This document shows positions 1,478-20,636 of a stretch of 28,747 nt of DNA, piece by piece. The DNA lies in IMG/VR virus record IMGVR_UViG_3300043119_000127, positions 1 to 28,747 of that record. One strand, written 5' to 3'. Position 1 is the stretch's first letter; each line of letters begins with the position of its first letter. The position numbers were made by a program, and so were the translations under genes. The stretch comes from a virus. The notes below the pieces were generated by a model. That model worked only from the letters and a program-made list of their open reading frames with translations, was not told the origin of the DNA and ran no database searches.

Positions 1478-1915
1478 ATGGCACGTAGTAAGATCACATC
1501 TACGTCACAAGATCTCATTTCTGATAATGGTTCAGTCCTAGTCAGTCTTGTAGATGGTGAACAATTACAACAAGATGTAACATTGAACTGGTTAACTAAC
1601 TTAACTGGTTATACTCTAAAGGTAAATGTTATTGAAGCTTTAAACATCGGTGACGGTAAAATACCAGTACTAGCTAGACCTAGTGGCATTATAACACAGT
1701 TACCTATTATAGATGCTACAGTAACAGACAACACCTTTAAAGTTATTTTTACTGAAGAACTAATTACTGCTTGGACAGTACAACCTACTCCTGATAAGCC
1801 TGTTTATGGCTTTATTGAACTAGAAGTACGAGACCCTGGCATTGGTAATCTAAAGCAAATCTGGAAACCTGTAAGAGGCCTAGTAGAAGTACTCTACTCT
1901 CCAACGGAGTTCTAA
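1478..1915 (+). CDS. First protein of the fibre cassette, putative baseplate/fibre-base protein (145 aa)
   Basis: I do not recognise a named family with certainty. The product is a mixed beta protein: after a short polar N-terminus comes QDVTLNWLTNLTGYTLKVNV, reminiscent of the N-terminal 'upper baseplate' domains that open fibre cassettes in other phages, then alternating strands to the end (FIELEVRDP...KPVRGLVEVLY). There are no cysteines, signal peptide or membrane segments. The start is set by a good AGAGGAG ribosome site 7 bases upstream and by the hairpin leader. The next gene starts 1 base after the stop. Position and composition suggest a structural adaptor that carries the fibres; this is inference. 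Confidence 0.55.
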   Translation: MARSKITSTSQDLISDNGSVLVSLVDGEQLQQDVTLNWLTNLTGYTLKVNVIEALNIGDGKIPVLARPSGIITQLPIIDATVTDNTFKVIFTEELITAWTVQPTPDKPVYGFIELEVRDPGIGNLKQIWKPVRGLVEVLYSPTEF

Positions 1916-1916
1916 G

Positions 1917-2399
1917 ATGACTTACAAGATAACAACTAAGAACGATAAACTAGAGATTTCTTTAGAAAAAAATGAGTTAGTAACAAAAGTAGTTCAACCA
2001 GAGTATAAAGTATCTTTAGCACGGACAGGTGGTCAAGGTGCTAAGGGTGATACTATTACTTCTGCTTACCTTGATGCTAATAGGCATCTAATCATTGTGG
2101 TACTAACTTCTTCTGGTCAGACAGTAGTCACGGATGTTGGTTATGTAGGCGCTATTCCAGCCCTAGACGATGTAACTAATGTTACTATAACTGACTTAGC
2201 AGATAAAGACTATATTGCTTATGAGGCTAGCACTCAACAGTATAAGAACTATAAGCTAACAACAACTAGGATGCTTGATGTAAATAACACAGCTAGAGCT
2301 GATGGTTCTGTTCTTGTTTACAATGGAACAACGCAGCAATATACAGCTACTAATACAATTAATAATCCTAACTTAATCATTGTCGGAGGTACTTTCTAA
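1917..2399 (+). CDS. Fibre subunit with LDDVTNV motif (160 aa)
   Basis: Short fibre-like protein. The first 50 residues are charged and contain a Gly-rich stretch, TGGQGAKGD, similar to the collagen-like starts of fibre shafts. Residues from about 82 carry the motif LDDVTNVTITDLADKDYIAY ending in YKNY, a divergent copy of the LDxLTDVxI...VLKYNGTNWxN unit found in three neighbouring genes. The C-terminus repeats the style (VLVYNGTTQQYTATN). It is Thr/Asn rich without cysteines, as expected for a trimeric beta fibre outside the cell. The stop TAA overlaps the next ATG by one base, so it is cotranslated with the following fibre gene. Confidence 0.6.
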   Translation: MTYKITTKNDKLEISLEKNELVTKVVQPEYKVSLARTGGQGAKGDTITSAYLDANRHLIIVVLTSSGQTVVTDVGYVGAIPALDDVTNVTITDLADKDYIAYEASTQQYKNYKLTTTRMLDVNNTARADGSVLVYNGTTQQYTATNTINNPNLIIVGGTF

Positions 2400-3358
2400 T
2401 GGCAACTAAAATTATTCATAAAAAATCGAATACAGTAGGTGCGGTACCTCTTTCAACTGATCTAGAAATCGGTGAACTAGGTCTTAATCTTGCTAATCGT
2501 AAAATTTATACTAAAAACAACATTGGTGTAGTAGTCTCACTAGGTTCACCTTTTGTTGGCTCTGTAGCTCCAGGCTCTCCTAACTCAGGTGACCTTTGGT
2601 ATGATACTTCCAGCAACTTCTTAAAGTTCTTTAATGGTTCTGCTTGGGTCATTACTGGCTTCACTTCCCTATCTCAATATCAAGTTTATGCTTCTTCTGA
2701 TGAGTTAAATATTCTTGACGGTGCAACGCTAACAACTACTGAGCTAAACTATGTTGACGGTGTAACGAGTGCTATTCAGACACAACTAGATGGTAAGTCT
2801 TCAACTACTCACAATCATAGCTTGAACTCTCTATCTAACGTTACAATTACTTCTAATACTCCTGGTGAACTTCTAGCTTGGAGTGGTAGTGCTTGGATTA
2901 ATAATACTCTTTTTGAAGCTGGTATTCAACCTGCAGGCTCTTATCTTACAGCAGAAGCAGATACTCTACAAACGGTTACTGATCGTGGAGCTACTACTAC
3001 TACTGCGGTTAGTATTACTGACACAACTACTTCTACCACTGCCGCTACAGGCGCTCTAATCGTATCTGGTGGTGTTGGCATCGGTGAAAATCTTAATGTT
3101 ACTGGTAACGCTGTTATTACAGGTAACTTGACTGTTATCGGTACTACTACAACTGTAAACAGTACTATTGTTGAAATTGGTGATAACATTATCATCCTGA
3201 ATGCTCATGAGACTGGATCTCCTACACAAAACGCTGGTTTTGAAGTAGAAAGAGGAACAGCAGCTAATGTTCAGTTTATCTGGAATGAGACTACTGATTC
3301 TTGGGACTTCGGTTCCTACCCAATTTCAAACGTAGTTATCGATGGTGGTACCTACTAA
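2399..3358 (+). CDS. Tail fibre protein (319 aa)
   Basis: Begins with a conserved fibre N-domain (MATKIIHKKSN...STDLEIGELGLNLANRKIY) shared with the next gene. It then has a tryptophan-rich module (SGDLWYDTSSN...FFNGSAWVITG), two 'LNxxDG' units (ELNILDGATLT, ELNYVDGVTS), a copy of the LNSLSNVTIT...AWSGSAWINN motif, and a C-terminal beta region (TGALIVSGGVGIGENLNVTG...VNSTIVEIGDNIIIL...FEVERGT...WNETTDSWDF). The last two styles are common in virion proteins of cyanophages and other marine phages. It probably forms a trimeric shaft or receptor-contacting fibre. A hairpin and short T-run follow the stop. Family placement is by recognition of these motifs; the receptor is unknown. Confidence 0.72.
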   Translation: MATKIIHKKSNTVGAVPLSTDLEIGELGLNLANRKIYTKNNIGVVVSLGSPFVGSVAPGSPNSGDLWYDTSSNFLKFFNGSAWVITGFTSLSQYQVYASSDELNILDGATLTTTELNYVDGVTSAIQTQLDGKSSTTHNHSLNSLSNVTITSNTPGELLAWSGSAWINNTLFEAGIQPAGSYLTAEADTLQTVTDRGATTTTAVSITDTTTSTTAATGALIVSGGVGIGENLNVTGNAVITGNLTVIGTTTTVNSTIVEIGDNIIILNAHETGSPTQNAGFEVERGTAANVQFIWNETTDSWDFGSYPISNVVIDGGTY

Positions 3359-3364
3359 ACTTAC

Positions 3365-3399
3365 AAGGGGATGGCTTCTATAGTCATCTCCTTCCTTTT
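3365..3399 (+). terminator. Probable terminator between two fibre genes
   Basis: An 11-base-pair stem, 3365-3375 (AAGGGGATGGC) with 3383-3393 (GTCATCTCCTT), has two G-U pairs, a 7-base loop and a short T-run (CCTTTT) after it. The T-run is brief, so termination is probably partial. The stem contains the ATG at 3371, which makes that ATG a poor start. Confidence 0.5.
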
Positions 3400-3412
3400 G
3401 GAGAAAAGCCCG

Positions 3413-4462
3413 ATGGCAACGAAAATTATTCTTAAGAAGTCTTCTGTTACAGGACAGGCTCCTATCTCTACAGACTTAGATGTTGGTGAGCTAGCTGTAA
3501 ACTTAGCAGACAAACTACTTTACTCTAAAGATGGCACAGGTGCTATCATTCAGCTAGGAGGTAGTGGTACTGGTGGTGCAACTACACTAGACGGCCTGAC
3601 AGATGTAGTCATAACTACCCCTACTACAAATGAAGTTTTAAAGTACAATGGAACTAACTGGATCAACACTGTAGACGCTACAGGTTCTGGTTCAGAGCTA
3701 CAACAGCTAACAGTCTACAACGGTACTGGTTCAACTATTGTTAAAGGCTCTGTCGTTTATATCAACGGTGCTCAAGGACAAAAGCCTAGCATCGCCCTAG
3801 CTAGTAATGCCTCAGAAGCTACCTCAAGCAAGACTTTTGGCTTTGTTAGTGCGGATATCGCTAACGGTGCTGACGGTGTGGTTATTACCTCTGGTATCGT
3901 GCCTAACCTCAACACCTCAGGCTTAACAGAAGGTGGCCCTATCTACCTTTCCTCTACTGCTGGCCAGTATACACAAACTAAACCCTCTGCTCCTAATCAC
4001 CTAGTTTCTCTTGGTTGGATTATGAAGGCTGGTTCAGGTTCTTCTGGTAGGCTCTTAGCTCACATTCAAAATGGTTTTGAGCTACAAGAACTACATAATG
4101 TTTCAATCCCTTCTCCTACTGATGGTCAAGTTCTTACTTTTAATAGTACAACAAATTTATGGGAAGCTGAAACTCCAGTTCTTATTGATACCTTTTTAGA
4201 GTTAACTGATACTCCTGACACTTATGTTGGAGCAGCTAATCAATTAGTAGGGGTATCCGCTGGCGCAACTGGTCTAGGTTTTACTAATGAAATTCAAATT
4301 TCAGAGTTTGTTCTATCAGCAATGTCTGCCCCCACTACACCTAGCTCAGACTCTATGTCTATCTATGTAACTGCATCAGGCACTACTCCAAATAGAGAAG
4401 TTGCTTATAAAATTAAAAATGAATTAGGACAAGAAATCATATTGTCTAGCGTATTGGTGTAA
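3413..4462 (+). CDS. Tail fibre protein, paralogous N-domain (349 aa)
   Basis: I chose the ATG at 3413 rather than the in-frame ATG at 3371. From 3413 the protein begins MATKIILKKSS...STDLDVGELAVNLADKLLY, aligning from residue 1 with the previous fibre gene; it also has a GGAG ribosome site 10 bases upstream, while 3371 is buried in a terminator stem. After the N-domain come the motif LDGLTDVVITTPTTNEVLKY, a middle domain (GSVVYINGAQGQKPSIALAS...TFGFVSADIANGADGVVITSG) of the kind seen in phage fibres that mimic 'GxVVYixGAxG' beta modules, and a further copy of the motif (LHNVSIPSPTDGQVLTF). The last 60 residues form a small beta cap. Predicted extracellular trimeric fibre; ligand unknown. Confidence 0.7.
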   Translation: MATKIILKKSSVTGQAPISTDLDVGELAVNLADKLLYSKDGTGAIIQLGGSGTGGATTLDGLTDVVITTPTTNEVLKYNGTNWINTVDATGSGSELQQLTVYNGTGSTIVKGSVVYINGAQGQKPSIALASNASEATSSKTFGFVSADIANGADGVVITSGIVPNLNTSGLTEGGPIYLSSTAGQYTQTKPSAPNHLVSLGWIMKAGSGSSGRLLAHIQNGFELQELHNVSIPSPTDGQVLTFNSTTNLWEAETPVLIDTFLELTDTPDTYVGAANQLVGVSAGATGLGFTNEIQISEFVLSAMSAPTTPSSDSMSIYVTASGTTPNREVAYKIKNELGQEIILSSVLV

Positions 4463-4463
4463 C

Positions 4464-7301
4464 ATGAGCAAACTTATAGTATCAGGATCAGGTGTCCGTG
4501 TAACTTCTTTAAGAGGTAGCACTAGTGTACCTTGGGTCCGTAATCCTTCTTGGCCAGTTTGTGAAGCAAATTCAGGTGACAACAAAGTAACTGGTCTTTA
4601 TGCCGTTTGGCCTGAAGGTGGTAACTTTATCTCTATGACAAATGCTGGGGACTATACCGTTAACTACGGTGATGGTACTACAACTAACTATGCAACTGGT
4701 GTGCAAGCTAGCTACGAGTATGACTATAGCAATGCAGCCTTAGATGGCACTAATGCACCCGTAACCTTTACAGGTGCTACTAACACAGTCAATCGTACTG
4801 CACATGGCTATACTAACGGTATGGCAGTAAAATTCTATAACATTGCTACAACAACGGGCATTGAAAAGGCGCAAACTTATTATGTCACCAATGCTACAAC
4901 TGACACCTTTCAAATAACCCGTAAACGATATAACTCAGTAACTGTAGCCGCACAAGATTCTACTCCAACTGGCGTATTCTTTAAGCCTGATGGTTTAAAG
5001 ATGTATACCACTGGTTCCACAAACGATAGAGTGTATGAATATAACCTAGCTGCTGCTTGGGATGTTTCAACTGCTACTTTTTTACAATTCTTCAGCGTAG
5101 CAACACAAGAAATTATTCCAACAGATGTATTTTTTAAGCCTGATGGTCTAAAAATGTATATCATCGGAAATGGTGGCATAGAAATAAACGAATATGACCT
5201 AAGCAGTGCTTGGAATGTAAGCACTGCCACTTTTGTGCAATTGCTTAGTGTTGCTGCTAGAGATACTGGTCCAACAGGTTTATTTTTCAAAACTGACGGC
5301 TTAAAAATGTATTTTACAGGTGCAACAAACGATAGCGTATATGAGTACAACTTAAGTACCGCTTGGAATATTTCAACCGCTACTTTTAGTCAATCTTTCA
5401 GTGTATCATCTCAGGATGGTACTCCTCAAAGCATACACTTTAAATCTGATGGACTAAAGATGTATATGCTTGGTTCTACTAGTGATAAGGTATATGAATA
5501 TAATCTGAGTTCCGCATGGGATATTTCAACCGCTACCTATTCGCAAAATTTTAGTACACTTCCAGAAACAGCACCGACCTTTATGTTCTTTCACCCCGAT
5601 GGTACAACAATGTATGTTGGTGGTTCTGGTATTGATGTTGTCAATGGGTATACTTTAAGCACTGCTTGGAATGTCTCTACTGCCACTCTTAGTGTAGAAG
5701 CCACAATCGTCGATTTCACAAATGATGGATCAGCGACACTACTACCATATAAAATTGCTACAGTAACAGTAACACCACAAGGTGGGTCTAACCTTACCAG
5801 TATTAACCTTGGCGTGAAGCATACTCAAAGCGGTCTTGTGAGTGGCTATGCTACTGGCTGGCTTGATATGGCAATTGCGGGTGCAAATATCACAACTTTG
5901 ACTATTGCAAATAGTTCACTATTAACAATACACTCGTATTTAGAACGTGCTAGAATAAATCAACTTGGTGCTGTTACAACCCTTGCTTCTCTTTTTTTAT
6001 ATTGCCGAACCCTTCAAAATGTAATTATCTCTGATACTATAACTACAGTAACAACTATGACTGGTATGTTTTCTAATTGTTATTCACTAACTACAGTACC
6101 CATATTTAACACTGCTTCAGTAACAACGATGGCTAATATGTTTAATGCTTGTTACTCACTTACAACTGTACCTTTATTTAATACTGCTTCAGTAACAACT
6201 ATGGCTAGCATGTTTAATGGCTGTTATTCACTTACAACAGTGCCTCTATTTAACACTGCCTCAGTGACAGATATGATTACTATGTTTGCTAATTGTTACT
6301 CACTTACAACTGTACCTTTATTTAATACTGCTTCAGTAACAACTATGGCTAGCATGTTTGATAACTGCCCCGTACTTACATCAGTGCCACTGTTTAATAC
6401 TGCTTTAGTAACAAATATGACTAGCATGTTTAATAATTGTGGTGCACTTACATCAGTACCCTTGTTTAATACTGCCTTAGTGATAACTATGGCTAGCATG
6501 TTTACTAGCTGTGGCGCACTCACAACTGTACCCCTGTTTAATACCGAGAGAGTAACAACTATGGCTGGTATGTTTACTAGCTGTCTTTCGCTTACAACTG
6601 TACCACTGTTTAATACCGCCAGAGTAACAACTATGGCTACTATGTTTAATAATTGCAAATTACTTTCAACAGTACCTTTATTTAATACTACTTCATTAAC
6701 AATTATGACTAGCATGTTTGCTACATGTTCTTCACTTATATCGGTTCCACTTTTTAATACCATCTCAGTAACAGATATGTCTTCCATGTTCTCTGGTTGT
6801 AGTGCACTTACATCAGTGCCTCTGTTTAATACCGCTAGAGTAACAACTATGGCTAGTATGTTTACTTCTTGCTCTTCGCTTACATCAGTACCACTATTTA
6901 ATACTGCTTTAGTAACAGCTATGAATAGTATGTTTAATGGTTGTTCTTCACTTGCAACTGTACCTTTACTTAATACTGCTGCAGTGACAACCATGGCTAG
7001 TATGTTTACTTCTTGCTCTTCACTTACATCAGTTCCAGCCTTAGTTACAAGCGGAGTTACTATTTCAACAAACTTTGGTAACATGTTTAATACTTGCCCA
7101 AGTCTTGCTCGTATTGAAGCAAAGAACTTTAACTATACTTTCTCAGTGGCAAGTTGCAAACTATCAGCAACAGCTTTAAATGAGATCTACACAAACCTAC
7201 CAACAGTTGCAGGTCAAACTATAACAGTAACAGGAAACTATGGGGTTGCAACAGATGACTCAACAATCGCAATTGCTAAAGGATGGACGGTAACAGGATG
7301 A
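4464..7301 (+). CDS. Large tail fibre/adhesin with propeller-like and BspA-type leucine-rich repeats (945 aa)
   Basis: Four regions are visible. Residues 1-150 form a fibre head with a GDYTVNYGDGT strand and a HGYTNGMAVKF module. Residues 165-417 hold five repeats of about 51 residues with the core FFKPDGLKMY...VYEYNLSxAWxVSTAT, which resembles a beta-propeller blade. Residues 418-529 resume a fibre-type domain ending in FLYCRTLQNVIISDT. Residues 530-864 are fourteen 24-residue repeats, consensus TTMASMFxxCxSLTTVPLFNTAxV, matching the BspA-like / DUF285 leucine-rich repeat class, followed by a degenerate repeat and a cap ending in VTGNYGV...IAKGWTVTG. BspA-type repeats in bacteria mediate surface binding, so this is a good candidate receptor-binding protein. 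Domain identities come from recognising repeat patterns; the propeller assignment is less certain than the leucine-rich repeats. Confidence 0.75.
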   Translation: MSKLIVSGSGVRVTSLRGSTSVPWVRNPSWPVCEANSGDNKVTGLYAVWPEGGNFISMTNAGDYTVNYGDGTTTNYATGVQASYEYDYSNAALDGTNAPVTFTGATNTVNRTAHGYTNGMAVKFYNIATTTGIEKAQTYYVTNATTDTFQITRKRYNSVTVAAQDSTPTGVFFKPDGLKMYTTGSTNDRVYEYNLAAAWDVSTATFLQFFSVATQEIIPTDVFFKPDGLKMYIIGNGGIEINEYDLSSAWNVSTATFVQLLSVAARDTGPTGLFFKTDGLKMYFTGATNDSVYEYNLSTAWNISTATFSQSFSVSSQDGTPQSIHFKSDGLKMYMLGSTSDKVYEYNLSSAWDISTATYSQNFSTLPETAPTFMFFHPDGTTMYVGGSGIDVVNGYTLSTAWNVSTATLSVEATIVDFTNDGSATLLPYKIATVTVTPQGGSNLTSINLGVKHTQSGLVSGYATGWLDMAIAGANITTLTIANSSLLTIHSYLERARINQLGAVTTLASLFLYCRTLQNVIISDTITTVTTMTGMFSNCYSLTTVPIFNTASVTTMANMFNACYSLTTVPLFNTASVTTMASMFNGCYSLTTVPLFNTASVTDMITMFANCYSLTTVPLFNTASVTTMASMFDNCPVLTSVPLFNTALVTNMTSMFNNCGALTSVPLFNTALVITMASMFTSCGALTTVPLFNTERVTTMAGMFTSCLSLTTVPLFNTARVTTMATMFNNCKLLSTVPLFNTTSLTIMTSMFATCSSLISVPLFNTISVTDMSSMFSGCSALTSVPLFNTARVTTMASMFTSCSSLTSVPLFNTALVTAMNSMFNGCSSLATVPLLNTAAVTTMASMFTSCSSLTSVPALVTSGVTISTNFGNMFNTCPSLARIEAKNFNYTFSVASCKLSATALNEIYTNLPTVAGQTITVTGNYGVATDDSTIAIAKGWTVTG
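4956..5711 (+). repeat. Five propeller-like coding repeats (about 51 codons each)
   Basis: In the 945-aa fibre the core xDGLKMY recurs at residues 175, 226, 277, 328 and 378, an almost perfect 51-residue period. Each copy also has YEYNLSxAW and VSTAT. DNA copies have diverged, so this is an old protein repeat rather than a recent DNA duplication. Confidence 0.75.
6051..7058 (+). repeat. Fourteen tandem 72-base repeats encoding leucine-rich repeats
   Basis: The repeat unit is exactly 24 codons, with Cys at one invariant position in nearly all copies (MFxxCxSL) and PLFNT in most. No copy length varies, so the reading frame and solenoid geometry are preserved. Copies are similar enough at DNA level (for example ACTATGGCTAGCATGTTTA recurs) to allow slippage or recombination that changes copy number. 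The same repeats create a long spurious antisense frame. Confidence 0.88.
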
Positions 7302-7507
7302 TCGAAGGATTTTATAAACTAGATGGGACTCTTCTTTATGGACCCAACTTTGTTCTTAACTCTAACTATGAACTTCGTAAAGAAACAAAAGATGATCATA
7401 GCTACCCAATTGATGGTTGGTATTGGTTTGATACACTAGAAGAAGCTTGTGTAGTCTTTGGTTTAAATGCTAGCGACTACCAAGAAGAGGTGCTAAATGG
7501 CTATTAA
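7298..7507 (+). CDS. Small fibre-cassette protein (69 aa)
   Basis: I prefer the ATG at 7298, which overlaps the stop of the large fibre (ATGA), over the in-frame ATG at 7283. From 7298 the product reads MIEGFYKLDGTLLYGPNFVL..., the start style I recall for small proteins in marine phage fibre cassettes; the first five residues from 7283 add nothing recognisable. It has a Trp/Tyr-rich core (PIDGWYWFDTLEEAC) and one cysteine. No function is established. It could be a chaperone or a small capping subunit for the adjacent fibre. The next gene overlaps its end by 11 bases. Confidence 0.6.
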   Translation: MIEGFYKLDGTLLYGPNFVLNSNYELRKETKDDHSYPIDGWYWFDTLEEACVVFGLNASDYQEEVLNGY

Positions 7508-8141
7508 GAGATATGCAGGAGATAAGCTAGTAGGACTTAGTTCAGATACAAAACCTACAAATGTCCCAGACGGTGCTAACTTTTATGAGACTAATACTCT
7601 TGACCAGTATATTCTAACTGGTGGCACTTGGGTTAAGCTTGGTAGTGGTACTGTAACAGGTGTAACAGGCACGGCTCCAATTGTTTCATCAGGCGGGGCT
7701 ACTCCAGCGTTGTCTATCAGCGCTGCAACCACTTCTGCTGCAGGGTCTATGAGTTCTGCTGATAAAACTAAGCTAGATGGTATCGCTTCAGGTGCTCAAG
7801 TTAATGTAGCTACAAACTTATCTCAAGGAACAAGAACAACTACTACTGTCCTTTTAGACAGTTCAACTGGTACTTCAGCTACGCTAGACATCGCAACTAC
7901 TAGTTTAGCTGGGGTTATGTCTTCAGCCGATAAAACAAAGCTAGATGGCATCGCTACAGGTGCTACAGCTATTACAAATCTAGATAGTTTAACAGATGTT
8001 GTAGTAGCTTCACCAACTACAGGTCAAGTACTCAAATACAATGGCACTAACTGGGTTAATGATACAGATGCTACAGGTTCTGGTGGTGGTGAGGGTATTA
8101 CTACTGGTAAAGCTATCGCAATGGCAATGATTTTCGGATAA
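7497..8141 (+). CDS. Fibre protein ending in GKAIAMAMIFG (214 aa)
   Basis: The N-domain (MAIKRYAGDKLVGLSSDTKP...GANFYETNTLDQYILTGG) is a recurring start in marine phage fibre proteins. It contains two copies of a fibre unit, MSSADKTKLDGIAxGA, separated by a strand-rich segment, then the motif LDSLTDVVVASPTTGQVLKY shared with neighbouring genes. The C-terminus GKAIAMAMIFG is a conserved ending in many cyanophage-type virion proteins, probably marking the attachment point of the following small protein. Ser/Thr/Gly rich, no cysteine. Likely an elongated trimeric shaft protein in the virion. Confidence 0.7.
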   Translation: MAIKRYAGDKLVGLSSDTKPTNVPDGANFYETNTLDQYILTGGTWVKLGSGTVTGVTGTAPIVSSGGATPALSISAATTSAAGSMSSADKTKLDGIASGAQVNVATNLSQGTRTTTTVLLDSSTGTSATLDIATTSLAGVMSSADKTKLDGIATGATAITNLDSLTDVVVASPTTGQVLKYNGTNWVNDTDATGSGGGEGITTGKAIAMAMIFG

Positions 8142-8152
8142 AGGAATAAAAA

Positions 8153-8512
8153 ATGGCAAACCCAAACATAGTTGGTGTTACAACAATTTCAGGCAAAACA
8201 GCAGTTCAAGCTGTAGGTCTTACTGCAACAGATATTGTAGCAAATGCTGCCGCCTCTGGTAAAATTTTAAAGATCAACTCTTTAACTGTATCTAACATTG
8301 ACGGTACAAATGCTGCTGATGTAACAGTAGATTTTTTCAGGAGTTCTGTAGCTTATAATATCGCAAAAACTGTTACAGTTCCTGCAGATGCTACTCTTGT
8401 AGTTATTTCAAAAGATACAACTATTTATTTAGAAGAAGGCGACTCAATTAGAGTCTTAGCTTCGGCAACAGGAGACTTAGAAGCTATCTGCAGTTATGAG
8501 GAAATCAGCTAA
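8153..8512 (+). CDS. Small beta-rich virion protein (119 aa)
   Basis: Begins MANPNIVGVTTISGKTAVQA and is a single compact beta domain (ILKINSLTVSNIDGTNAADV... / TLVVISKDTTIYLEEGDSIR). In many marine phages a protein of this size and start directly follows the GKAIAMAMIFG protein, as here; it is usually annotated only as a virion structural protein. A clear AAGGA ribosome site lies 6-10 bases upstream. The fold pattern suits a fibre tip or joint. The stop overlaps the next ATG by one base. Confidence 0.62.
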   Translation: MANPNIVGVTTISGKTAVQAVGLTATDIVANAAASGKILKINSLTVSNIDGTNAADVTVDFFRSSVAYNIAKTVTVPADATLVVISKDTTIYLEEGDSIRVLASATGDLEAICSYEEIS

Positions 8513-9843
8513 TGGCTTTTGAAAGTGTTTTTGCTAACGGAGGAGTTATAGGAACACCCTTAGACTTTGGTTCTAGTAAACAATACGAAAGAACAAGACC
8601 TACATTAGTTGGTAGTCAAATCTATGGTAGAGTTGGAGCTGTAAGTTCTATTGCTGTAACAATAGCTTTGACGGGAGGTACAGATGCTCTTCCTAGAACT
8701 GGAGATGTTCTTGTACTTGCTATAGCTATTGGTTCTACTGGTACTCCTTCAAACCTTGCTGTTCCAACAGGTTATACCGTTATTTATCAGGGTACTTCTA
8801 ATGGGACTAATGATACTACATTGCTAGTTTGTTATAAGGTTATGGGATTAACAGTAGATACTACTTTTACAGTTCCTTCTAGTTTAAGTACCGCTAATGC
8901 TCAAACAGCTATTCTTTTTGCTTGGCGTAATGTAGATCTTACAAATCCTTTAGATATTACTGCTGTCTCTAATGTTTTAACAACAAGTAGACTAGCAGAT
9001 CCTCCTGAAATAACACCTACAACTACTAACTCAGTTGTTATTGGAGTAGGTGCTGCTGCTCATATTGGTGGTATTATTAATCCGACTAGTACTGATCTTA
9101 CAGGTTTTCGTGCTGCGGGCGCTGATGACACTTATGATAGCTCTTTAGGAGTTGGTTATTATAACTGGACTTCTGGCCCTTTTAAACCAGCCGCCTTTTC
9201 AATAGGTACTTCAGCAGCTACTGATTCCTCTATTGGTGTAACTTTTGCTTTAAGAGGAAATGAAACTAGTGGCAATTATAGAAACAGTGGTATTTGGGAT
9301 TTAAGGTCAGTCAGTTCTTATTCCTATCAAAATTTAAATAGAACAAGAAGTTTAGAAAACGTTACTAAAAATGTAGCTTTAGATATAGGCGCTTGGCAAG
9401 TTGCTGGCGGTGGAAACGCTTGTACTCTTACAAGAGATCTAACGGTTACAGACTCTCCTTTTGGGGGAGTTCCTTTAAAGATGGCAATAACTGGGGGGGA
9501 TCCTTATACTTTAGGCTGGACCTCAGCCACTTGGAAAATTACAGCAGCTACTAACGGGGAAACTTGGGAACTTAGAGTACTGGCAAAAGCCTCAGTTGTA
9601 GGTAACTTAGAGTTATTCTTATTTGGCAGTCCTTCGACTGGAACTCCTCCTGTTACGGCAGGAACTTATTCTGCTAGTGGACAGTTAGTCACAAGCACTG
9701 ACTGGAAAGAATATAAGTTTCGTTGGACTATAAGTTACAGTGGTATTAGATTTCTCAGTATGAGACTAGACGGTACTCAGAGTGTCGGTAGTGGTCAAAA
9801 TATTTGGTTTGATGGACTTCAGTTATATAAGGTGAGACCATGA
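8512..9843 (+). CDS. Probable adhesin with two beta domains, possible carbohydrate-binding module (443 aa)
   Basis: Two beta domains can be seen. Residues about 40-250 form a jelly-roll-like domain (PRTGDVLVLAIAIGSTGTPS...TILFAW-like core...SSIGVTFALRGNE). A linker SGIWDLRSVSSYSYQ follows; 'WDL/WSLRxxYxxR' segments occur in other fibre proteins, including the next gene. Residues about 295-443 resemble a carbohydrate-binding jelly roll (ETWELRVLAKAS...DWKEYKFRWTISYSGI...NIWFDGLQLYKV), the pattern of CBM-type domains in which the final strand carries 'xxWFDGxxL'. I infer a host-surface glycan-binding role, not enzymatic activity. It overlaps the next gene by 4 bases. Confidence 0.58.
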   Translation: MAFESVFANGGVIGTPLDFGSSKQYERTRPTLVGSQIYGRVGAVSSIAVTIALTGGTDALPRTGDVLVLAIAIGSTGTPSNLAVPTGYTVIYQGTSNGTNDTTLLVCYKVMGLTVDTTFTVPSSLSTANAQTAILFAWRNVDLTNPLDITAVSNVLTTSRLADPPEITPTTTNSVVIGVGAAAHIGGIINPTSTDLTGFRAAGADDTYDSSLGVGYYNWTSGPFKPAAFSIGTSAATDSSIGVTFALRGNETSGNYRNSGIWDLRSVSSYSYQNLNRTRSLENVTKNVALDIGAWQVAGGGNACTLTRDLTVTDSPFGGVPLKMAITGGDPYTLGWTSATWKITAATNGETWELRVLAKASVVGNLELFLFGSPSTGTPPVTAGTYSASGQLVTSTDWKEYKFRWTISYSGIRFLSMRLDGTQSVGSGQNIWFDGLQLYKVRP

Positions 9844-10613
9844 GTAGCATAATTGGACCCCATTTTGGTAACTCCAAAGGAAAAGCTTCAGGAGTCTGGA
9901 GTTTAAGAAAGCAGTATAACGAACGCCAACAAGATTTGTGGCCGAGGGCAGCACCAATAGCAACTTATATAGGAACAACTGTTTATGTCGCTCCAAATAC
10001 TACACCTTTTAATACTTACACCTTTAGTGGTGTAAATCTTGGAACTGGCCCTAATAAGTTCATAATGGCAATCTATGTACAAGCTAATAGCACTAATACT
10101 GGAAACCTTTTATCAACAGCGACTATAGGAGGTAACTCCGCTAGTTTTTACAAATCGAATCCTGGTGCTGTAGCCCAATGGGAAGAAGCTAGCGGTTTAT
10201 TCTTACAAAACTCAAGTTTAACAACAGGCGATGTGACTTTAACTTTTTCTTCTAATTTAAATACCTTTGGTGGTACAGCTAGGGCGTTAATTGCTATTTC
10301 GGTTTATTCAGTTGAAACCTATAGCTCATTAACTTTTCATACATCTAGTATTGCAGGAACTGCAGGAACTACTGCCTTTGCAATGAACTCTGCAGCTGTT
10401 CCAGCTCTAGGTATTGCTGCTGCTGTTCATAAAACTGCGATAGCTGGTTCTTATGGCAGTCTTACTACGGACTATAATGTATCGTCAGGCGCAGCCGATC
10501 CTACTAACGTTCTTAGATATGTTTCTGCAAGTGGACCTTTAGCTGCCAGCAATACAGTTTCACTTCCTTCTACAACTTATGCAGCAACAATAGGTTTCAC
10601 TCTAACAAATTAA
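9840..10613 (+). CDS. Beta-rich virion protein, paralogous domain to the preceding adhesin (257 aa)
   Basis: N-terminus contains ASGVWSLRKQYNERQQDLWP, a short helix-turn segment that occurs in phage fibre/hinge proteins and matches the SGIWDLRSVSSYSYQ linker of the upstream gene. The rest is a single beta domain (TPFNTYTFSGVNLGTGPNKF... AALGIAAAVHKTA ... YAATIGFTLTN) with the same general strand order as the first domain of the upstream protein. Translationally coupled to it by a 4-base overlap. Probably a structural partner in the same adhesion complex; ligand unknown. Confidence 0.55.
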   Translation: MSSIIGPHFGNSKGKASGVWSLRKQYNERQQDLWPRAAPIATYIGTTVYVAPNTTPFNTYTFSGVNLGTGPNKFIMAIYVQANSTNTGNLLSTATIGGNSASFYKSNPGAVAQWEEASGLFLQNSSLTTGDVTLTFSSNLNTFGGTARALIAISVYSVETYSSLTFHTSSIAGTAGTTAFAMNSAAVPALGIAAAVHKTAIAGSYGSLTTDYNVSSGAADPTNVLRYVSASGPLAASNTVSLPSTTYAATIGFTLTN

Positions 10614-10620
10614 GGTAAAC

Positions 10621-11070
10621 ATGTCATTATACTCATATAAACAACAATATCCAACTAACCTACCCTTTCGTATTAAACTTTCGAATGGTATGACAAGAAC
10701 AGATCCTTCTAGTTTTACACAGGAAGAGCTACTAGATGCAGGTTACACCTTAGTCGAAGACCAACCAAGCTATACTTCAAACCAAGTGCTAGATTGGAAC
10801 TCAACAGGAAACTCTTGGACTGTAAGAGACAAGACTGAAGAAGAACTACAAGCAGAAGCTAATTTACACTGGGCTTCTGTAAGGCAAGAGCGAGACAACA
10901 AGATCCAACAAGTAGTGTGGCATTATGAACGTTATGCTCGCTATGAAAGACTTGGTATTGCTCAAGTAGACTCTATTCAAGACTTAGATAACTATATTCA
11001 AACTCTTGCAGACTTACCTGAAACACAAACAGATCCATTTAATATTATTTGGCCTAATCTAATAACTTAA
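10621..11070 (+). CDS. Tail fibre assembly / tail assembly chaperone-like protein (149 aa)
   Basis: Last gene of the fibre cassette. The C-terminal half has WASVRQERDNKIQQVVWHYER followed by IQDLDNYIQTLADLPETQ and a final NIIWP. The pattern 'W..VR.ERD.....W...RY...LADLP.....W' is typical of the small proteins at the end of fibre cassettes annotated as DUF4376 or phage tail assembly chaperone-type. Such proteins help fold or attach the fibre and may not be in the virion. The N-terminal half (MSLYSYKQQYPTNLPFRIKL) is family-specific. Location directly after the adhesins supports this. Confidence 0.62.
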   Translation: MSLYSYKQQYPTNLPFRIKLSNGMTRTDPSSFTQEELLDAGYTLVEDQPSYTSNQVLDWNSTGNSWTVRDKTEEELQAEANLHWASVRQERDNKIQQVVWHYERYARYERLGIAQVDSIQDLDNYIQTLADLPETQTDPFNIIWPNLIT

Positions 11071-11083
11071 TAAAGGATAACTT

Positions 11084-14000
11084 ATGTCTAAATCTCAAGA
11101 ACTCTTTGATCTAAACATTGAGCACTTACTATTAACACGTCGCTACGGAGACGCTGCACGTTTACTAATCGAAAAGGCTTCTGTTCGGCATCGTGGTTTT
11201 CTACAAAAGATCTTAGGCAAAGATTTGAAAGACAAGAAAGAACTAGAGCGTGAGGTTACTCGCCATGTGCAAGAACTTCATGCTTTAGGCTCTAATGCTG
11301 TAACAGACTACATCGGTGCAGAACTAGACTTCCAAACTAACAGCCTAAAGAAGGTTATCGGTGACGTCTATGAAATTAACTCAGTCAATCGAGGAGAACT
11401 ATCTAGACAGATCACTTCTTCTCCTTTGAAGTTGTTTGACTCAACTAAAGGTCACCCCACTCTAGCTAAAAGCTTTGAAAACATCGGTGGTTCTGAGTTA
11501 ACTCGACTAAACCTTACAATTCGTAAAGGCATAGCCTCAGGTTTGTCAGAAGATGCTATTGTTACTAATGTTCTAGCCTCAGCAAAGCTAACAGAAAGCC
11601 AAGCTAAGACTCTTGTTACAACTCATATCACACAAGCTGATAACATCGTTAAACAAAAGGTATTAGAAGCTAATTCTGAAGCTATTTCTGGCTTTGTCTT
11701 TACTGCTATTCTTGATTCAAGAACTAGTGAAATCTGTTCTCGTTATGATAACCTATTTCAAACTAAAGACAATCTAAGAGTACAACCCCCTTTACATTGG
11801 AGATGCCGTTCTACTCTTGTTCCTGTTCTTAGGGGAAAGAAAGAGTTACTAGCGCTAAATAGTCCTAGAGTAAATCAAACTAAATTGCTTAACAAAGCAG
11901 ATAATGTTCTTACTGGTGCTTTACCTTTAAAAGAAACTTTCACAGAATGGCTAGCTAGACAACCTATGGCTACAAAGTTAGACAAACTAGGCTCAGAAGA
12001 AAAGGTAGCTTTATTTGAAAAAGGTTCTTTACCTCTTGCCGAGTTCTTTGGTTTAAAAGGCAACCCTATTGACATCAGTGTTCTTCGTCTAAAAGACAAT
12101 CTTCTAACCTACTTTTCTCCTTTACGTTCAGTAGCTAAAGATCCTCAAGCTTCTTTCATAGAAGTCACAAGACCTTTCCAGATTGTTCGTTCTAAGCAAG
12201 CACAAAAAGATCTTGCTGATCTCATAGTAGCAGATACTTTGAATGCTAACCAAGCTCTTAGCCTAGTTGACTACAAGGGTACTAGTCTTGTTGGTAAGCG
12301 TGGGGTACGTACTCAAACAAATAACGAGTTTGATCCTCGTAACTCTAGCTTTGATCCTTTCACAGGAGAAGTACGCTCTAATCTTTACTATGATCCAGAC
12401 TTTAGTTTACTTAGAGAACGTGTAGACTACATGAAAGAATCTAAACTTCTTGATCGTAATCAAAAGCAGTTCATTGAAGACTTTACTAACTCTCTTGAAG
12501 ACAAGATCTCAGTTAATCAGCAAACAGCTGTAGTTGAGAATCTTCGTATTCTTTTTGAACGTTATCAGAAGTCACCAGAACCTTGGGATAACTTTGTTGC
12601 TACTCTTCGTTCTGAAATGAACTTCTCTGTAGTTAACACTTCTAGACTGCTTGATCGTAGAGCTAGAGCTAAGTCAGAGTTGTTCTTAGGTTTTAAAGGT
12701 GATCCTAACGAGCCTGCAGTTATGATTCAAGGTCAGTTGTTACCTATTTCTAAGCTACATGCTGAAAAGCTAAGCTATGAGCGTTATGTAAACGACTGGG
12801 CTTCAACTGAAGGTATTAAATTCTCCAGGTCTATTTACTACAGATTTAAAGCTCCTTGGCAATCTTATTTCTTTGGACCTGTAACAAAGCCTGATGGTTT
12901 GTTTGAAGAGTTAAAGAATAGTTTTGTTAGAAGGGCTATTCGCTCAACCTTTTATAAAAATGATCCTATTGGTTACTATACCCGTTATGGTAAAACGCCT
13001 GATAAGTGGTCTAAGATAGTTAAGACCTATATCAAAAAAGCTATAACTCCTGATTGGTTTAAAATGTTTCTGGAAATTAAAGAAGAAGGTCTTGCTGATT
13101 TTATTAAAAGGACTATTCGTGAAGAATATCGTTCTATTGTAGATCTTGAATTTCTTTATGCTTTTAAAAGGAAATTAACTTTAGAAAACCTTCTTGTTAA
13201 AGATTTACTAGAACCTATTGAAGGTAAAGCTGTAGAATCTTTATCTAGCCTTGTAAAAGTTATAGCAGAAGGAACTACTACTGACTATGATACTCTTGCT
13301 ATTAATTTAGGGAAAGAATTAAAAAAGAATTGGGATTCTTCTTATCCTATCTTTGGTTCTTCTTTAGAAGATTACCATGAACAAGGTTCTAAGATCTTAG
13401 AGTTATTTAAATCACAAGGGCTTATTCGAGTAAACTCAAGAGGTGTAACTCGTAGAGCTACTACAGATTTAGATACAGGTAGGGCTTCTGGTTTTTGGAA
13501 AGATACTGTTTCAAGAGAAGTTACTGTCCTAGATCCAACTATGCTTAAACTACAAGACTATAACAGACGTATTGAACTGTCTAACCGCTTAGGTGTTGAT
13601 CGTCCTGAAAACAAATACTATGTGGTACCAGGAAAGAAGACCTATGTAGATGCTAGAGGTAAAGATACAGGTGTTCCTTTAGTTACTCGTTCGGCCTTTC
13701 CAAAGTTTGATGAAAAACAAATTGACGGTGATTTTGCTGACATGTTGAATCATACTATGTCTTTTAAGTATGAAGTAGACGATGAATTTTCTAGTTTCAT
13801 GGACGATCTAGTCCGATTTAAAGATCAAAGAGGTAAAGCAGCTTACTATGACTCAATTAATTCGTTTCGCGAAGAAATTATCCGACGGGGAGACCAGGGC
13901 TATGGCCTTATGGAAACTCTCCGTTACTATCGGGCCAATGGAAAGCCTTTTACAGTACATGCCCGTATTGACGGTCGTGGTCGTGTCTACTATAATGGGT

Positions 14001-15607
14001 ATCTAACTCCTACAGGCGGTGAAGTTGTTCGTCCTTTCTTGAACACAGCTCATGCTGTTTCTATGACTCCTCAAGGGTTGCATCAGCTAAAAATCCAAAT
14101 GGCTAGTGTTATAGGGCCAGGTACTGAAGCACTTACAGATGTAGGTCGTCTTGCTATTTTTAAAAAGAATGAAAAATCTATTTTAGAAGTAGGCCAGTTG
14201 CTTAGTGCTAAGACACAACGAGAAAGAAGACTGAGAGAGTTCTTAGAGCATCCTTTGATTCAATCTACAGATCCTGCTGAAGTTGCTAAGATAGCTCGTT
14301 TTAGCCTTGAATACTACAGGATTTATAAGGCTACAGGTGGAGACTTTACTCCTGCTAAACTAAAGCTATACAAAAGCAAATTGTTAGGTGAAGCTGACGC
14401 CAGTGCTAGTGGTCTACAGATGATTGCTTTAGCTACAGGAGATCGTGGTGCAGCTATTACAAGTAACGTTATTCAGTCAGTAAAGAAAAATAGAATCTAT
14501 GACCTTGTTGCTCAAGATACTGTTGCTGATCCACGTTTCCAAGCTTTAATGGATGACTTAGGTCTAGACTTAACTTGGGAAGATCTAAGCAAAGCTGCTA
14601 AATATCAAGTTATGATTGCTTTTTATGGTGCAGGTAAAGCTGGCCAAACAGCAAGAGTAGCTTTAGAACTAGCTAAAGTACTAAGAGGAAAAGATATCCT
14701 TGTTACAACTAGAGCAGAATACCTAACTTTAAGTAAGCAAATAGACGTTAAGATTAAAGAAGCAAAAGCTCTAGGTGCAGTAGAAACTCAAGCAGACCTC
14801 TTAGCTCTAAAGAAAGAAGTCTTTGAAATTATTAACAATCCTGATAAGATTATTAGTGATGAGTTACTTGCAGAAGCTGCAGAGATTCATCCCAGTCTTT
14901 CTGACTTTGTTTATAAGTATTCTAATCGAAGAGGACCTCAAGTAGGGCCAGATCACTTCAAACAAATTGCCTCTATCATGTCAGAGAAGCTAACTGAGCG
15001 AGCACCTGTTACAGGTACTTACATTGACTTTTGGAAACGTGTTGGCCAAGACTATGCTCGATCAACAGGTAAAGTTCGTATTCCTTGGGTTACTTTCGAT
15101 GGGAAAAAACTTTATCAAGACTATCGTCCTAAAATCCAACAAGAAATTCGTTTCTGGGATCCTCAGAGTAAACGCTACATCAAGAACATTTATCAAATGT
15201 CTGCTGAAGATGGTAAGCTCTTAGGTAAAGGTCAAGTAGGTGATGTACGGCTAGGTCTAGGTGTTAACGGTACTCACGCAGACGACGCTAGTGTTGTTAG
15301 ACAACTGCATTTATGGGGACGTAAGGCTGGCATTCCAACTTCTACGATTCACGATGCTGCTGCTCTTAATATAAACGAAATTGATCCTCTATTAGTTGCA
15401 GTTAGACAAATCTATAGTGATTTTGCTAAATACCCTAAGATCAAAAAGACATTAGATGCTCTTCGTGAAGAAGGTTTATCTGATGAGTTGTATTTTAAAT
15501 ACTTAAAAGAAGCTGAAGATTTAGGCTACTTTAATCCACAATTTAAACCAGATGAAATAACGGCACCATTAAAAACAGGATTTGACTATTATTCTTGGGG
15601 GCCATAA
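11084..15607 (+). CDS. MuF-type minor head protein fused to a T7-family single-subunit RNA polymerase (1507 aa)
   Basis: N-terminal region: residues about 135-250 match the Mu gpF head-morphogenesis domain, with DSRTSEICSRYD (Cys218) and PPLHWRCRSTLVPV (His238, Cys241). C-terminal region: a T7-type RNA polymerase core with DGRGRVYY at 963-970 (T7 DxxGR, Asp421), ADASASGLQ at 1104-1112 with Asp1105 (T7 Asp537), KYQVMIAFYG at 1173-1182 (T7 Lys631 and Tyr639, same spacing), IPWVTFDGKKLYQDY at 1333-1347 (T7 HWVTPDGFPVWQEY) and IHD at 1422-1424 (T7 His811-Asp812). A polymerase N-terminal domain presumably fills much of 400-960; residues 270-540 resemble nothing I know. All catalytic residues are present, so activity is expected. 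MuF proteins enter the head with the portal; by inference this polymerase is packaged and ejected, like N4 virion RNA polymerase. RBS AAAGGA lies upstream. Confidence 0.9.
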   Translation: MSKSQELFDLNIEHLLLTRRYGDAARLLIEKASVRHRGFLQKILGKDLKDKKELEREVTRHVQELHALGSNAVTDYIGAELDFQTNSLKKVIGDVYEINSVNRGELSRQITSSPLKLFDSTKGHPTLAKSFENIGGSELTRLNLTIRKGIASGLSEDAIVTNVLASAKLTESQAKTLVTTHITQADNIVKQKVLEANSEAISGFVFTAILDSRTSEICSRYDNLFQTKDNLRVQPPLHWRCRSTLVPVLRGKKELLALNSPRVNQTKLLNKADNVLTGALPLKETFTEWLARQPMATKLDKLGSEEKVALFEKGSLPLAEFFGLKGNPIDISVLRLKDNLLTYFSPLRSVAKDPQASFIEVTRPFQIVRSKQAQKDLADLIVADTLNANQALSLVDYKGTSLVGKRGVRTQTNNEFDPRNSSFDPFTGEVRSNLYYDPDFSLLRERVDYMKESKLLDRNQKQFIEDFTNSLEDKISVNQQTAVVENLRILFERYQKSPEPWDNFVATLRSEMNFSVVNTSRLLDRRARAKSELFLGFKGDPNEPAVMIQGQLLPISKLHAEKLSYERYVNDWASTEGIKFSRSIYYRFKAPWQSYFFGPVTKPDGLFEELKNSFVRRAIRSTFYKNDPIGYYTRYGKTPDKWSKIVKTYIKKAITPDWFKMFLEIKEEGLADFIKRTIREEYRSIVDLEFLYAFKRKLTLENLLVKDLLEPIEGKAVESLSSLVKVIAEGTTTDYDTLAINLGKELKKNWDSSYPIFGSSLEDYHEQGSKILELFKSQGLIRVNSRGVTRRATTDLDTGRASGFWKDTVSREVTVLDPTMLKLQDYNRRIELSNRLGVDRPENKYYVVPGKKTYVDARGKDTGVPLVTRSAFPKFDEKQIDGDFADMLNHTMSFKYEVDDEFSSFMDDLVRFKDQRGKAAYYDSINSFREEIIRRGDQGYGLMETLRYYRANGKPFTVHARIDGRGRVYYNGYLTPTGGEVVRPFLNTAHAVSMTPQGLHQLKIQMASVIGPGTEALTDVGRLAIFKKNEKSILEVGQLLSAKTQRERRLREFLEHPLIQSTDPAEVAKIARFSLEYYRIYKATGGDFTPAKLKLYKSKLLGEADASASGLQMIALATGDRGAAITSNVIQSVKKNRIYDLVAQDTVADPRFQALMDDLGLDLTWEDLSKAAKYQVMIAFYGAGKAGQTARVALELAKVLRGKDILVTTRAEYLTLSKQIDVKIKEAKALGAVETQADLLALKKEVFEIINNPDKIISDELLAEAAEIHPSLSDFVYKYSNRRGPQVGPDHFKQIASIMSEKLTERAPVTGTYIDFWKRVGQDYARSTGKVRIPWVTFDGKKLYQDYRPKIQQEIRFWDPQSKRYIKNIYQMSAEDGKLLGKGQVGDVRLGLGVNGTHADDASVVRQLHLWGRKAGIPTSTIHDAAALNINEIDPLLVAVRQIYSDFAKYPKIKKTLDALREEGLSDELYFKYLKEAEDLGYFNPQFKPDEITAPLKTGFDYYSWGP

Positions 15608-19457: not shown

Positions 19458-20045
19458 ATGGCATATCCTACTTCTATTTCAGCAGCACAGTATTCTGCGC
19501 TAGCTGTTTCTAGAGTAGCTGTCCCAACCACGCTTACTGAAGCTACCCTAAAAGCAAACTTTTCAGGTTCAACTACTTCAGGCGCACGTGGTGATTACGT
19601 AGAAATTAAGAATATTCGTGACATGCCAGCTTTTGGTACCCCCGCTAATATCGTTAAAGTTCCCGTATATGGACAAGCTCAAACTCAATCTATTGGTGCT
19701 CAATCTGACGCACCTGATCTAGAACTATCAATTAACTTCGTAGCTGACGACTGGGCTAAAGTCAATTCAACCTTTGGTAATCCCTCAGGTTCATCTGCTG
19801 GCACAGGTACTCTCGGCGATGCTGTCGCCGATGGCGTAGCAAAAGTATTTCAGTTCGCTCTTCTACCTGCTAAGCCTACTAGTCTCAATGCTCTAGTTGG
19901 TGGTGTTGGTACTGTTCCTAATGCGCTTATCTACTTCGTAGGTAAAATGGAATCTCTACTGATTACTCCTTCTCGTGATGATGCCTCCACTGCTACTGTG
20001 GCACTGTCAATTCAGTCTGATTTCTATGGCCCCTATACCGTATAA
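19458..20045 (+). CDS. Major tail tube protein, copy 1 (195 aa)
   Basis: Forms the hexameric rings of the tail tube. Starts MAYPTSISAAQYSALAVSR and contains NIRDMPAFGTPANIVKVPVY, SDAPDLELSINFVADDWAKV, GDAVADGVAKVFQFALLPAKP and the C-terminal GKMESLLITPSRDD/STATVALSIQSDFYGPY. The central segment, a loop between beta strands and the final strand pair, matches siphovirus tube proteins. Next to an almost identical second copy. Position between tail terminator and assembly chaperone is standard. Copy 1 has an insertion of about 11 residues (SGSTTSGARGDY region and STFGNPSGSSAG) relative to copy 2. Which copy is the main tube component cannot be read from the sequence. Confidence 0.83.
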   Translation: MAYPTSISAAQYSALAVSRVAVPTTLTEATLKANFSGSTTSGARGDYVEIKNIRDMPAFGTPANIVKVPVYGQAQTQSIGAQSDAPDLELSINFVADDWAKVNSTFGNPSGSSAGTGTLGDAVADGVAKVFQFALLPAKPTSLNALVGGVGTVPNALIYFVGKMESLLITPSRDDASTATVALSIQSDFYGPYTV

Positions 20046-20057
20046 GGAACAATAAAT

Positions 20058-20636
20058 ATGGCATATCCTACCTCTATCTCAGCTGCTCAGTATTCTGCGC
20101 TAGCTGTTTCTCGTCTAGCAGTACCTGCTACTATTAATGAAGCTAACCTAAAAACAAACTTTGCTACTACCAGTAACTTTGTTGAAATTCAAAACATTCG
20201 CGACATGCCAGCTTTCGGTACTCCTGCGAATATCGTTAAAGTTCCTGTTTATGGCCAAGCACAGACCCAGTCAATTGGTGCTCAGTCAGATGCTCCTGAC
20301 TTAGAGTTGTCAATTAACTTTGTTCCTTCACTTTGGGCAAAGAATGGTGCAGCTTTCTCTGCTACAGGTACTCTCGGCGATGCTGTTTCTGATGGCGTGG
20401 CTAAAGTATTCCAGTTCGCACTACTTCCAGCTAAACCTCCTGCTCTAACAACTGCGCTAACAGCGGGTGTTGGTGGTACTACAGCTGCCCCAATTCCGAA
20501 TGCTCTTATCTATTTCGTTGGTAAGATGGAATCACTCTTAATCACTCCTTCACGTGATGACGCTTCAACCGCTACTGTGGCACTGTCAATTCAGTCAGAC
20601 TTTTATGGTCCTTATACTTTGACCGCTACTAGCTAA
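20058..20636 (+). CDS. Major tail tube protein, copy 2 (192 aa)
   Basis: Paralogue of the preceding gene, 12 bases downstream. Segments from NIRDMPAFGTPANIVKVPVY to the PDLELSINFV strand and the last 40 residues (IYFVGKMESLLITPSRDD...SDFYGPYT) are identical or nearly so. It differs in three loops: a shorter first loop, a variable middle (PSLWAKNGAAFSATG) and an inserted Ala/Thr/Gly loop (LTAGVGGTTAAPIP). Short identical DNA runs (for example 20 bases around CAGTATTCTGCGCTAGCTG) sit among synonymous differences, so the duplication is not recent but the copies may exchange sequence. A hairpin follows the stop. The two copies could make a mixed tube, or one could form a specialised ring. Confidence 0.82.
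   Translation: MAYPTSISAAQYSALAVSRLAVPATINEANLKTNFATTSNFVEIQNIRDMPAFGTPANIVKVPVYGQAQTQSIGAQSDAPDLELSINFVPSLWAKNGAAFSATGTLGDAVSDGVAKVFQFALLPAKPPALTTALTAGVGGTTAAPIPNALIYFVGKMESLLITPSRDDASTATVALSIQSDFYGPYTLTATS

Follow-up and report, generated by a model that had tools for sequence, protein, structure and literature searches.

The question raised by this locus is whether a phage could vary a receptor-binding protein by means of a tandem repeat array. Diversification of such proteins by reverse transcriptase is well known in phages; a repeat array would be another route to receptor-binding variation, for which homologous recombination alone would suffice. The window, by which we mean the whole stretch of DNA analyzed, is a 28,747-base virus record of IMG/VR with its main genes all on the + strand, including those for a portal (phrog_145), several fibre proteins, a leucine-rich repeat (LRR) protein, a fibre assembly protein, a MuF-RNAP fusion, a major head protein and a tape measure. 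An earlier note on this DNA had singled out the LRR gene as a phage fibre whose repeat number might change without a frameshift. Related loci or contigs are given L-numbers (L002, L135 etc.); all sequences are metagenome assemblies, and comparisons were made on assembled contigs. The features on which the argument rests are as follows.

1478..11070, +: fibre island, between the portal gene and the MuF-RNAP gene (tail/fibre PHROG matches; gene content varies in backbone relatives)
4464..7301, +: LRR fibre/adhesin gene, an ORF of 945 aa (DUF285, E 1.2e-99; TIGR02167, E 1.2e-39)
4464..4742, +: N-terminal domain, first part, about residues 1-93, GDYTVNYGDG region (conserved columns to Y86/L93 in an 18-protein alignment)
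4743..5726, +: insertion of about 330 aa in the N-terminal domain (conserved columns resume at G422)
about 4929-5732, +: five 51-aa blades of a probable beta-propeller (blade starts at residues 168, 219, 270, 321 and 371)
5727..5972, +: N-terminal domain, second part, leading to the solenoid (conserved columns G422, K430, A432, P438, G441, N443)
6045..7052, +: array of 14 LRR units of 24 residues, consensus SVTTMASMFTNCYSLTTVPLFNTA (pLDDT block means 79-96)
7053..7301, +: C-terminal cap ending in KGWTVTG (conserved columns C898 to V943; KGWxV ending upstream of the partner at 78/80 loci)
7283..7507, +: partner gene, 74 aa, GFYK..YGPN..YPIDGWYWF (its first 19 nt lie within the end of the LRR gene)
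10621..11070, +: probable tail fibre assembly protein (phrog_4912, E 7.9e-8; phrog_8716, E 7.4e-7)

Units, period and sequence identity of the array

The array consists of 14 units, each exactly 72 nt long, in frame and without indels (6045-7052), which agrees with the 14 in-phase units reported earlier at 6051-7058 save for a shift of 6 nt. Tandem Repeats Finder placed it at 6046-7033, with a period of 72, 13.7 copies, 75% matches, 0% indels and a score of 807; the period is exact, as had been claimed, and the unit sequence is not. Mean pairwise identity of the units was 0.736 at the nucleotide and 0.668 at the amino acid level, and the longest exact repeat in the LRR gene was 67 nt, values that do not bear out the description of the units as high-similarity DNA repeats. 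The same program offered an alternative period of 216 nt (score 904), and this higher-order unit was rejected, since unit identity did not depend on distance (permutation fractions: lag 1, 0.26; lag 2, 0.15; lag 3, 0.78). Degenerate repeat-like stretches lie on both sides of the array (5973-6044 and 7053-7124).

At residues common to two units the same codon was used in a fraction of 0.632, against 0.422 expected from the codon usage of the window (1000 simulations, sd 0.023, maximum 0.504), and in a comparison with 12 other arrays the fraction was 0.64 within the window's array and only 0.28-0.48 between its units and theirs. This excess indicates that the common descent of the units is more recent than protein constraint alone requires. 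A cysteine is present in 14/14 units, and we propose V, M, M, F, C, L, V, P, L, F, N and T as the constant frame of the unit. Across arrays, variation is concentrated at unit positions 1, 4, 6, 7, 10, 11, 13, 16 and 24 and the frame is nearly fixed, the constancy of M5 and C12 being by construction because the search pattern required them. In a search of the coding DNA for dyad symmetry no inverted repeat of at least 12 nt was found, and the best palindrome scores, by a statistic of our own and not the MEME run of Roske et al., were 5 in the unit consensus and 7 in the array, values also attained in 339/500 and 49/60 codon shuffles, respectively.

Family, fold and domain layout of the protein

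The LRR protein matched DUF285 (PF03382) in 9 stretches, with 328.8 bits against a cut-off of 25, and TIGR02167/PARCEL with 133.4 bits against a cut-off of 30; a DUF285 search of the genome returned 5 stretches above cut-off. The similarity to DUF285 put forward earlier is therefore substantial, and its pairing with a BspA-type class is less clear: the best solved match, by sequence (E 1.4e-13) as by fold, is the BspA-like protein 4fs7 of Bacteroides ovatus, but the LRR_5 profile (PF13306) gave no match to the window protein at E 1. Two proteins elsewhere (L115:2232-4016 and L145:2022-4016) match LRR_5 and DUF285 alike and link both repeat classes.

The closest solved sequences are LRR proteins. 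Structure prediction, which had been proposed as a check, gave a solenoid resembling solved LRR proteins. A single-sequence model of 452 residues had a mean pLDDT of 72.8, and Foldseek found no PDB match to it at E 0.001 or better. A whole-protein model built with 20 aligned relatives had pLDDT block means of 79-96 in the array, 74-94 in the N-terminal domain (residues 31-90) and 27-59 in the inserted propeller. Its best match was 4fs7 (Z 19.1, rmsd 4.1, 365 residues aligned); human SHOC2 was practically tied with it by Z (18.5) but with an rmsd of 9.0, so that the model points clearly to the LRR class and less clearly to any one subclass. Among predicted viral structures (BFVD), those that matched best belong to phage proteins annotated as surface protein 26-residue repeat.

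The gene is a mosaic, in that the N-terminal domain is unbroken in relatives and split in the window by about 330 residues. We infer a PKD-like fold for the first part of this domain, for which BFVD gave a match to a protein of phage S-SKS1 named PKD domain-containing protein. The five blades of the insertion probably form a beta-propeller, and the region matched the profiles SGL (E 4.6e-8) and, below the cut-off of that profile, WD40_Prp19 (E 8.9e-6). L044, L045 and Lentibacter phage ICBM2 encode fibre-like proteins with similar blades.

A variable fibre island in a tailed phage

The LRR gene lies within the tail/fibre locus, between portal and head genes, and the reading as a phage fibre made from the sequence is supported by the tail and fibre genes of a tailed phage around it. 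The portal is common to 19 loci, of which L047 is the near-identical contig and L046 ends just 3' of the portal; the other 17 (L048-L064) have portals of 46-85% identity. Units of the window's motif were found in 0/17 of these in a six-frame search that used the Cys-type motif, which degenerate DUF285 genes would escape. Eight of the 17 (L048, L049, L050, L053, L054, L058, L060 and L061) cover the whole island, including both the last conserved fibre gene and the MuF gene, and hold other fibre genes there; L052 and L063 do not extend far enough to reveal it. In L062 and L064 the MuF gene follows the portal after about 1.5 kb and 0.1 kb, respectively, and this interval contains no matching fibre genes. 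The backbone is thus kept while the content of the fibre island varies, and the LRR gene is one of the genes that can fill it. In L135 an LRR gene with the same partner and fibre setting stands next to tail fibre proteins.

Judged by portal and MuF-RNAP, the closest isolates are DSS3_VP1, DSS3_PM1 and EBPR siphovirus 1 (31-44% identity), and a portal scan of genome contigs, as a prophage route to the host of the window's phage, gave no relative. Some neighboring genes deserve mention in their own right. At 11084-15607 a MuF head morphogenesis domain is fused to a T7-like single-subunit RNA polymerase in one ORF of 1507 aa, a fusion kept in backbone relatives and in DSS3_VP1/PM1 (about 44% over 96%), where the annotation of the counterpart names no more than a minor head or head morphogenesis protein; this suggests a virion-carried polymerase. 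Two adjacent, very similar genes (19458-20045 and 20058-20636; 195 and 192 aa) possibly encode duplicated tail tube proteins, and an ORF neighboring the LRR gene has a weak head cement match (PF09956).

A small partner gene downstream

The gene that overlaps the end of the LRR gene is conserved at about 60 aa across relatives, with 16 invariant positions in 13 aligned homologues. A scan of viral contigs with this family gave 233 loci, and the best 80, which include near-identical copies, were kept. In 78/80 of these an ORF ending in the KGWxV motif of the LRR protein lies directly 5' of the partner, the exceptions being L128 and L144, of which L144 lies at the start of its contig. By unit count, the upstream ORF held a clear array at 49/80 loci, one to two units at 9/80 and none by motif at 17/80; 5/80 had no upstream ORF of 60 aa in reach. 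All of the motif-less upstream ORFs given to Pfam (5/5) were DUF285. Among LRR genes with a readable 3' side, many of them near-identical copies, 29/31 have the partner (5 more were not determinable), and those without it are L004 and one of the two LRR ORFs of L035.

Five partner loci lie in bacterial MAGs. At four of these (4/5) the ORF upstream carries the cap motif along with degenerate repeats, and the remaining one, L151 (E 5e-5), lacks such an ORF. Beside the LRR-plus-partner pair of a Bacteroidales MAG is an ORF (L149:3813-5050, - strand) which we take to be tyrosine recombinase-like. Searches with the partner gave no match in the phage collection and weak matches only in Pfam (best E 0.0045, Inhibitor_I69, 5/13 members) and PHROGs (best E 0.025). 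Our guess is that it might serve as an assembly chaperone or as a cap for the solenoid tip; having no convincing Pfam or PHROG match, it may represent a new kind of fibre chaperone or tip protein. In L025, L027-L031 and L033 the partner is extended to about 133 aa by an extra C-terminal part.

Whole-unit change in repeat number among relatives

Relatives were collected by scans whose queries were the L005 N-terminal domain (35 loci), L004 (3 loci), the window protein, its N-terminal half and the partner (best 80 of 233). Among 59 complete LRR genes there were 57 pairs with both flanks more than 94% identical, of which 25 were identical, 28 equal in length but different and 4 unequal in length. 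All four unequal pairs differ by multiples of 24 residues, i.e. by whole units. Expansion and contraction without a frameshift, as suggested in the earlier note, are thus seen in 4/4 unequal pairs, and repeat number, whose comparison across relatives that note had advised, is not constant, with length varying in 3/9 groups of close alleles (counted with L043/L118, which are one contig, and without L005, whose gene starts at a contig edge). The suggestion has its limit in the other 6/9 groups, which are constant in length, so the change is neither constant nor very fast. Strict units per gene ranged from 4 to 18 in 44 distinct genes.

The clearest case is L135/L136, two relatives whose contigs are otherwise identical. 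They show 0 substitutions over 29,047 compared nt (17,538 upstream + 2,004 + 9,505 downstream), and their sole difference is 144 nt, two units in frame, giving 13 against 11 turns; the L136 gene is the L135 gene without mismatch save for this gap. The crossover is 7 identical nt, which makes k-mer collapse in assembly unlikely. L134, with 22 differences from L135 in 8,216 positions, also has the long 13-unit form and differs from L136 by 2 units. The L135/L136 pair is a natural experiment, with 13- and 11-turn alleles in an otherwise identical 29-kb setting. L012/L013 differ by 1 unit, with 1 mismatch in the gene, and make a weaker case, as the 79 nt of exact identity at their crossover could be collapsed by short k-mers; also weaker is L008/L009, which differ by 1 unit and 33 other mismatches, the partial L010 having the same unit spacing as L009. 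For the window's own array no relative of other length was found: L002, the one contig near-identical to the window (4 mismatches in 6707 nt), breaks off within the array, as do L010 and L014 within theirs, and no second contig came up when exact copies of the window's cap sequence were sought.

Block replacement and stable arrays

In addition to gain and loss of units, blocks of units are replaced. L070 and L085 both have 13 units and gene flanks 0.98-0.99 identical; their same-index identity is 0.90-0.97 in units 1-6 and 13 and 0.72-0.88 in units 7-12. Synonymous changes numbered 26 in 312 array codons, against 4/181 and 1/82, and their rise alongside the others suggests import or conversion of units 7-12, and not selection on residues alone. 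In L005/L008 the gene flanks are 99.4% and 97.7% identical and the partner is in common, with only 73% identity beyond the cassette; 14/16 units differ, and units 3-16 have best matches of 0.72-0.92 (same-index codon counts for this pair are partly out of register and were excluded). In several pairs similarity ends about 420 nt 5' of the gene and about 155 nt 3' of it, and some other pairs have longer upstream DNA in common. A donor array elsewhere in the same genome was considered and rejected, as each of 11 records, possibly fragments, has one LRR locus; L035 has two LRR ORFs. At the other extreme, the array is identical or differs by one change across several metagenomes in L016-L018, L025/L026 and L027-L031. 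Together with the length-variable groups, these fixed arrays mean that repeat-number change is real but not constant.

Proposed explanation and alternatives

Taken jointly, the best explanation is a tail-fibre-type adhesin that varies by whole-unit recombination and by cassette swap, and we regard it as probable. The protein would have a virion-proximal N-terminal domain with the beta-propeller inserted, then a 14-turn DUF285 solenoid and a C-terminal cap, the end of the gene overlapping the start of a small dedicated partner gene. The variable unit residues on the solenoid would form the binding face, and the protein would sit on the virion, bind the host and perhaps affect host range. Recombination within one array, or between the arrays of different phages, would add, remove or replace whole 24-residue turns, and would do so without a frameshift because all units are homologous and in phase; it is presumably recombination, rather than replication slippage, that causes the unit changes. 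The two-gene unit of LRR gene and partner would also be swapped between phages as a cassette. For a putative host-binding protein, change in whole steps could be a simple means to remodel phage binding. We suggest more tentatively, with doubt prevailing, that the DUF285 solenoid and its 60-aa partner form a widespread two-gene adhesin module of tailed phages, the array being a recombination-driven diversifier free of reverse transcriptase, whose changes in length, through crossovers between imperfect units, outpace point mutation in the rest of the genome and which may be exchanged between unrelated phages because each unit offers homology.

The protein might instead be a fibre whose array turns over neutrally, by concerted evolution through slippage and recombination, with a spacer-like solenoid that has no selected role in binding or host range. 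Codon sharing within arrays would be the outcome of simple repeat turnover, the wide length range fits it too, and synonymous and non-synonymous changes occur together in the replaced block of L070/L085. We nevertheless hold this to be unlikely, given that variation is concentrated at certain unit positions on a nearly fixed frame (apart from the two residues fixed by the search) and that the gene is located where backbone relatives swap fibres. It is more improbable still that the LRR gene is cargo, or that it encodes a virion protein of another kind, exported or decorating, and not a receptor-binding fibre: DUF285 proteins are reported also from giant viruses (BFVD) and, in PMC2996958, from cells, and the head cement match next door would suit a decorating role, but fibre and fibre-assembly genes surround the LRR gene, and that of L135 stands 3' of tail fibre proteins. 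That the length differences are short-read assembly artefacts at repeats is very improbable, for although contigs break inside arrays as expected of repeats, and the L012/L013 crossover is a long exact repeat, the 7-nt crossover of L135/L136 is below any usual k-mer, the 13-unit form occurs in two records, and block replacement by 72-92% identical units is impossible through collapse.

Comparison with known systems

Among the closest described counterparts of the adhesin proposed here is PARCEL. Roske et al. 2010 (PMC2996958) report PARCEL arrays of variable number in bacteria and eukaryotes and DUF285 proteins from cells, and PMC7765460 reports PARCEL in a jumbo phage, which its authors call undescribed in phages. 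The window protein shares with PARCEL, as PMC2996958 describes it, the profile match, tandem arrays of variable number, a conserved hydrophobic frame, variable polar positions and a proposed horizontal spread. It differs from it in having units of 24 residues (14/14), the canonical PARCEL repeat described there being 25, in the invariant Cys and the VPLFNT motif, in that no dyad symmetry was found in the window's coding DNA, and in that the array is in a phage fibre gene with a partner gene. Our literature search, which covered few of the subscription journals, found neither a paper on an LRR-partner module nor one on phage DUF285 fibres that change in repeat number.

BspA-like/LRR_5 proteins (4fs7, TpLRR 6mlx) provide the best sequence and fold matches, but the window protein, unlike those of L115 and L145, is without the LRR_5 match. 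Phage proteins named "BspA family LRR" or "surface protein 26-residue repeat", as in Aeromonas phages D3 and LAh10, Synechococcus phage ACG-2014f and Vibrio phage pir03, are of the same repeat class and also from tailed phages; however, no phage record covers 80% of the window protein, and the partner is absent from the phage collection. BFVD matches include DUF285 proteins of giant viruses. Listeria InlJ (3bz5, Z 16.0) is likewise an LRR solenoid, with a cysteine ladder according to the structure title, but is a cell-anchored bacterial protein with a different repeat. Given this precedent, the invariant Cys outside the cell, which the earlier note had rightly seen in each unit and found notable, is not by itself strange. 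The DUF285 family is thus already known, and what the relatives of this phage show beside it is change of array length in whole units.
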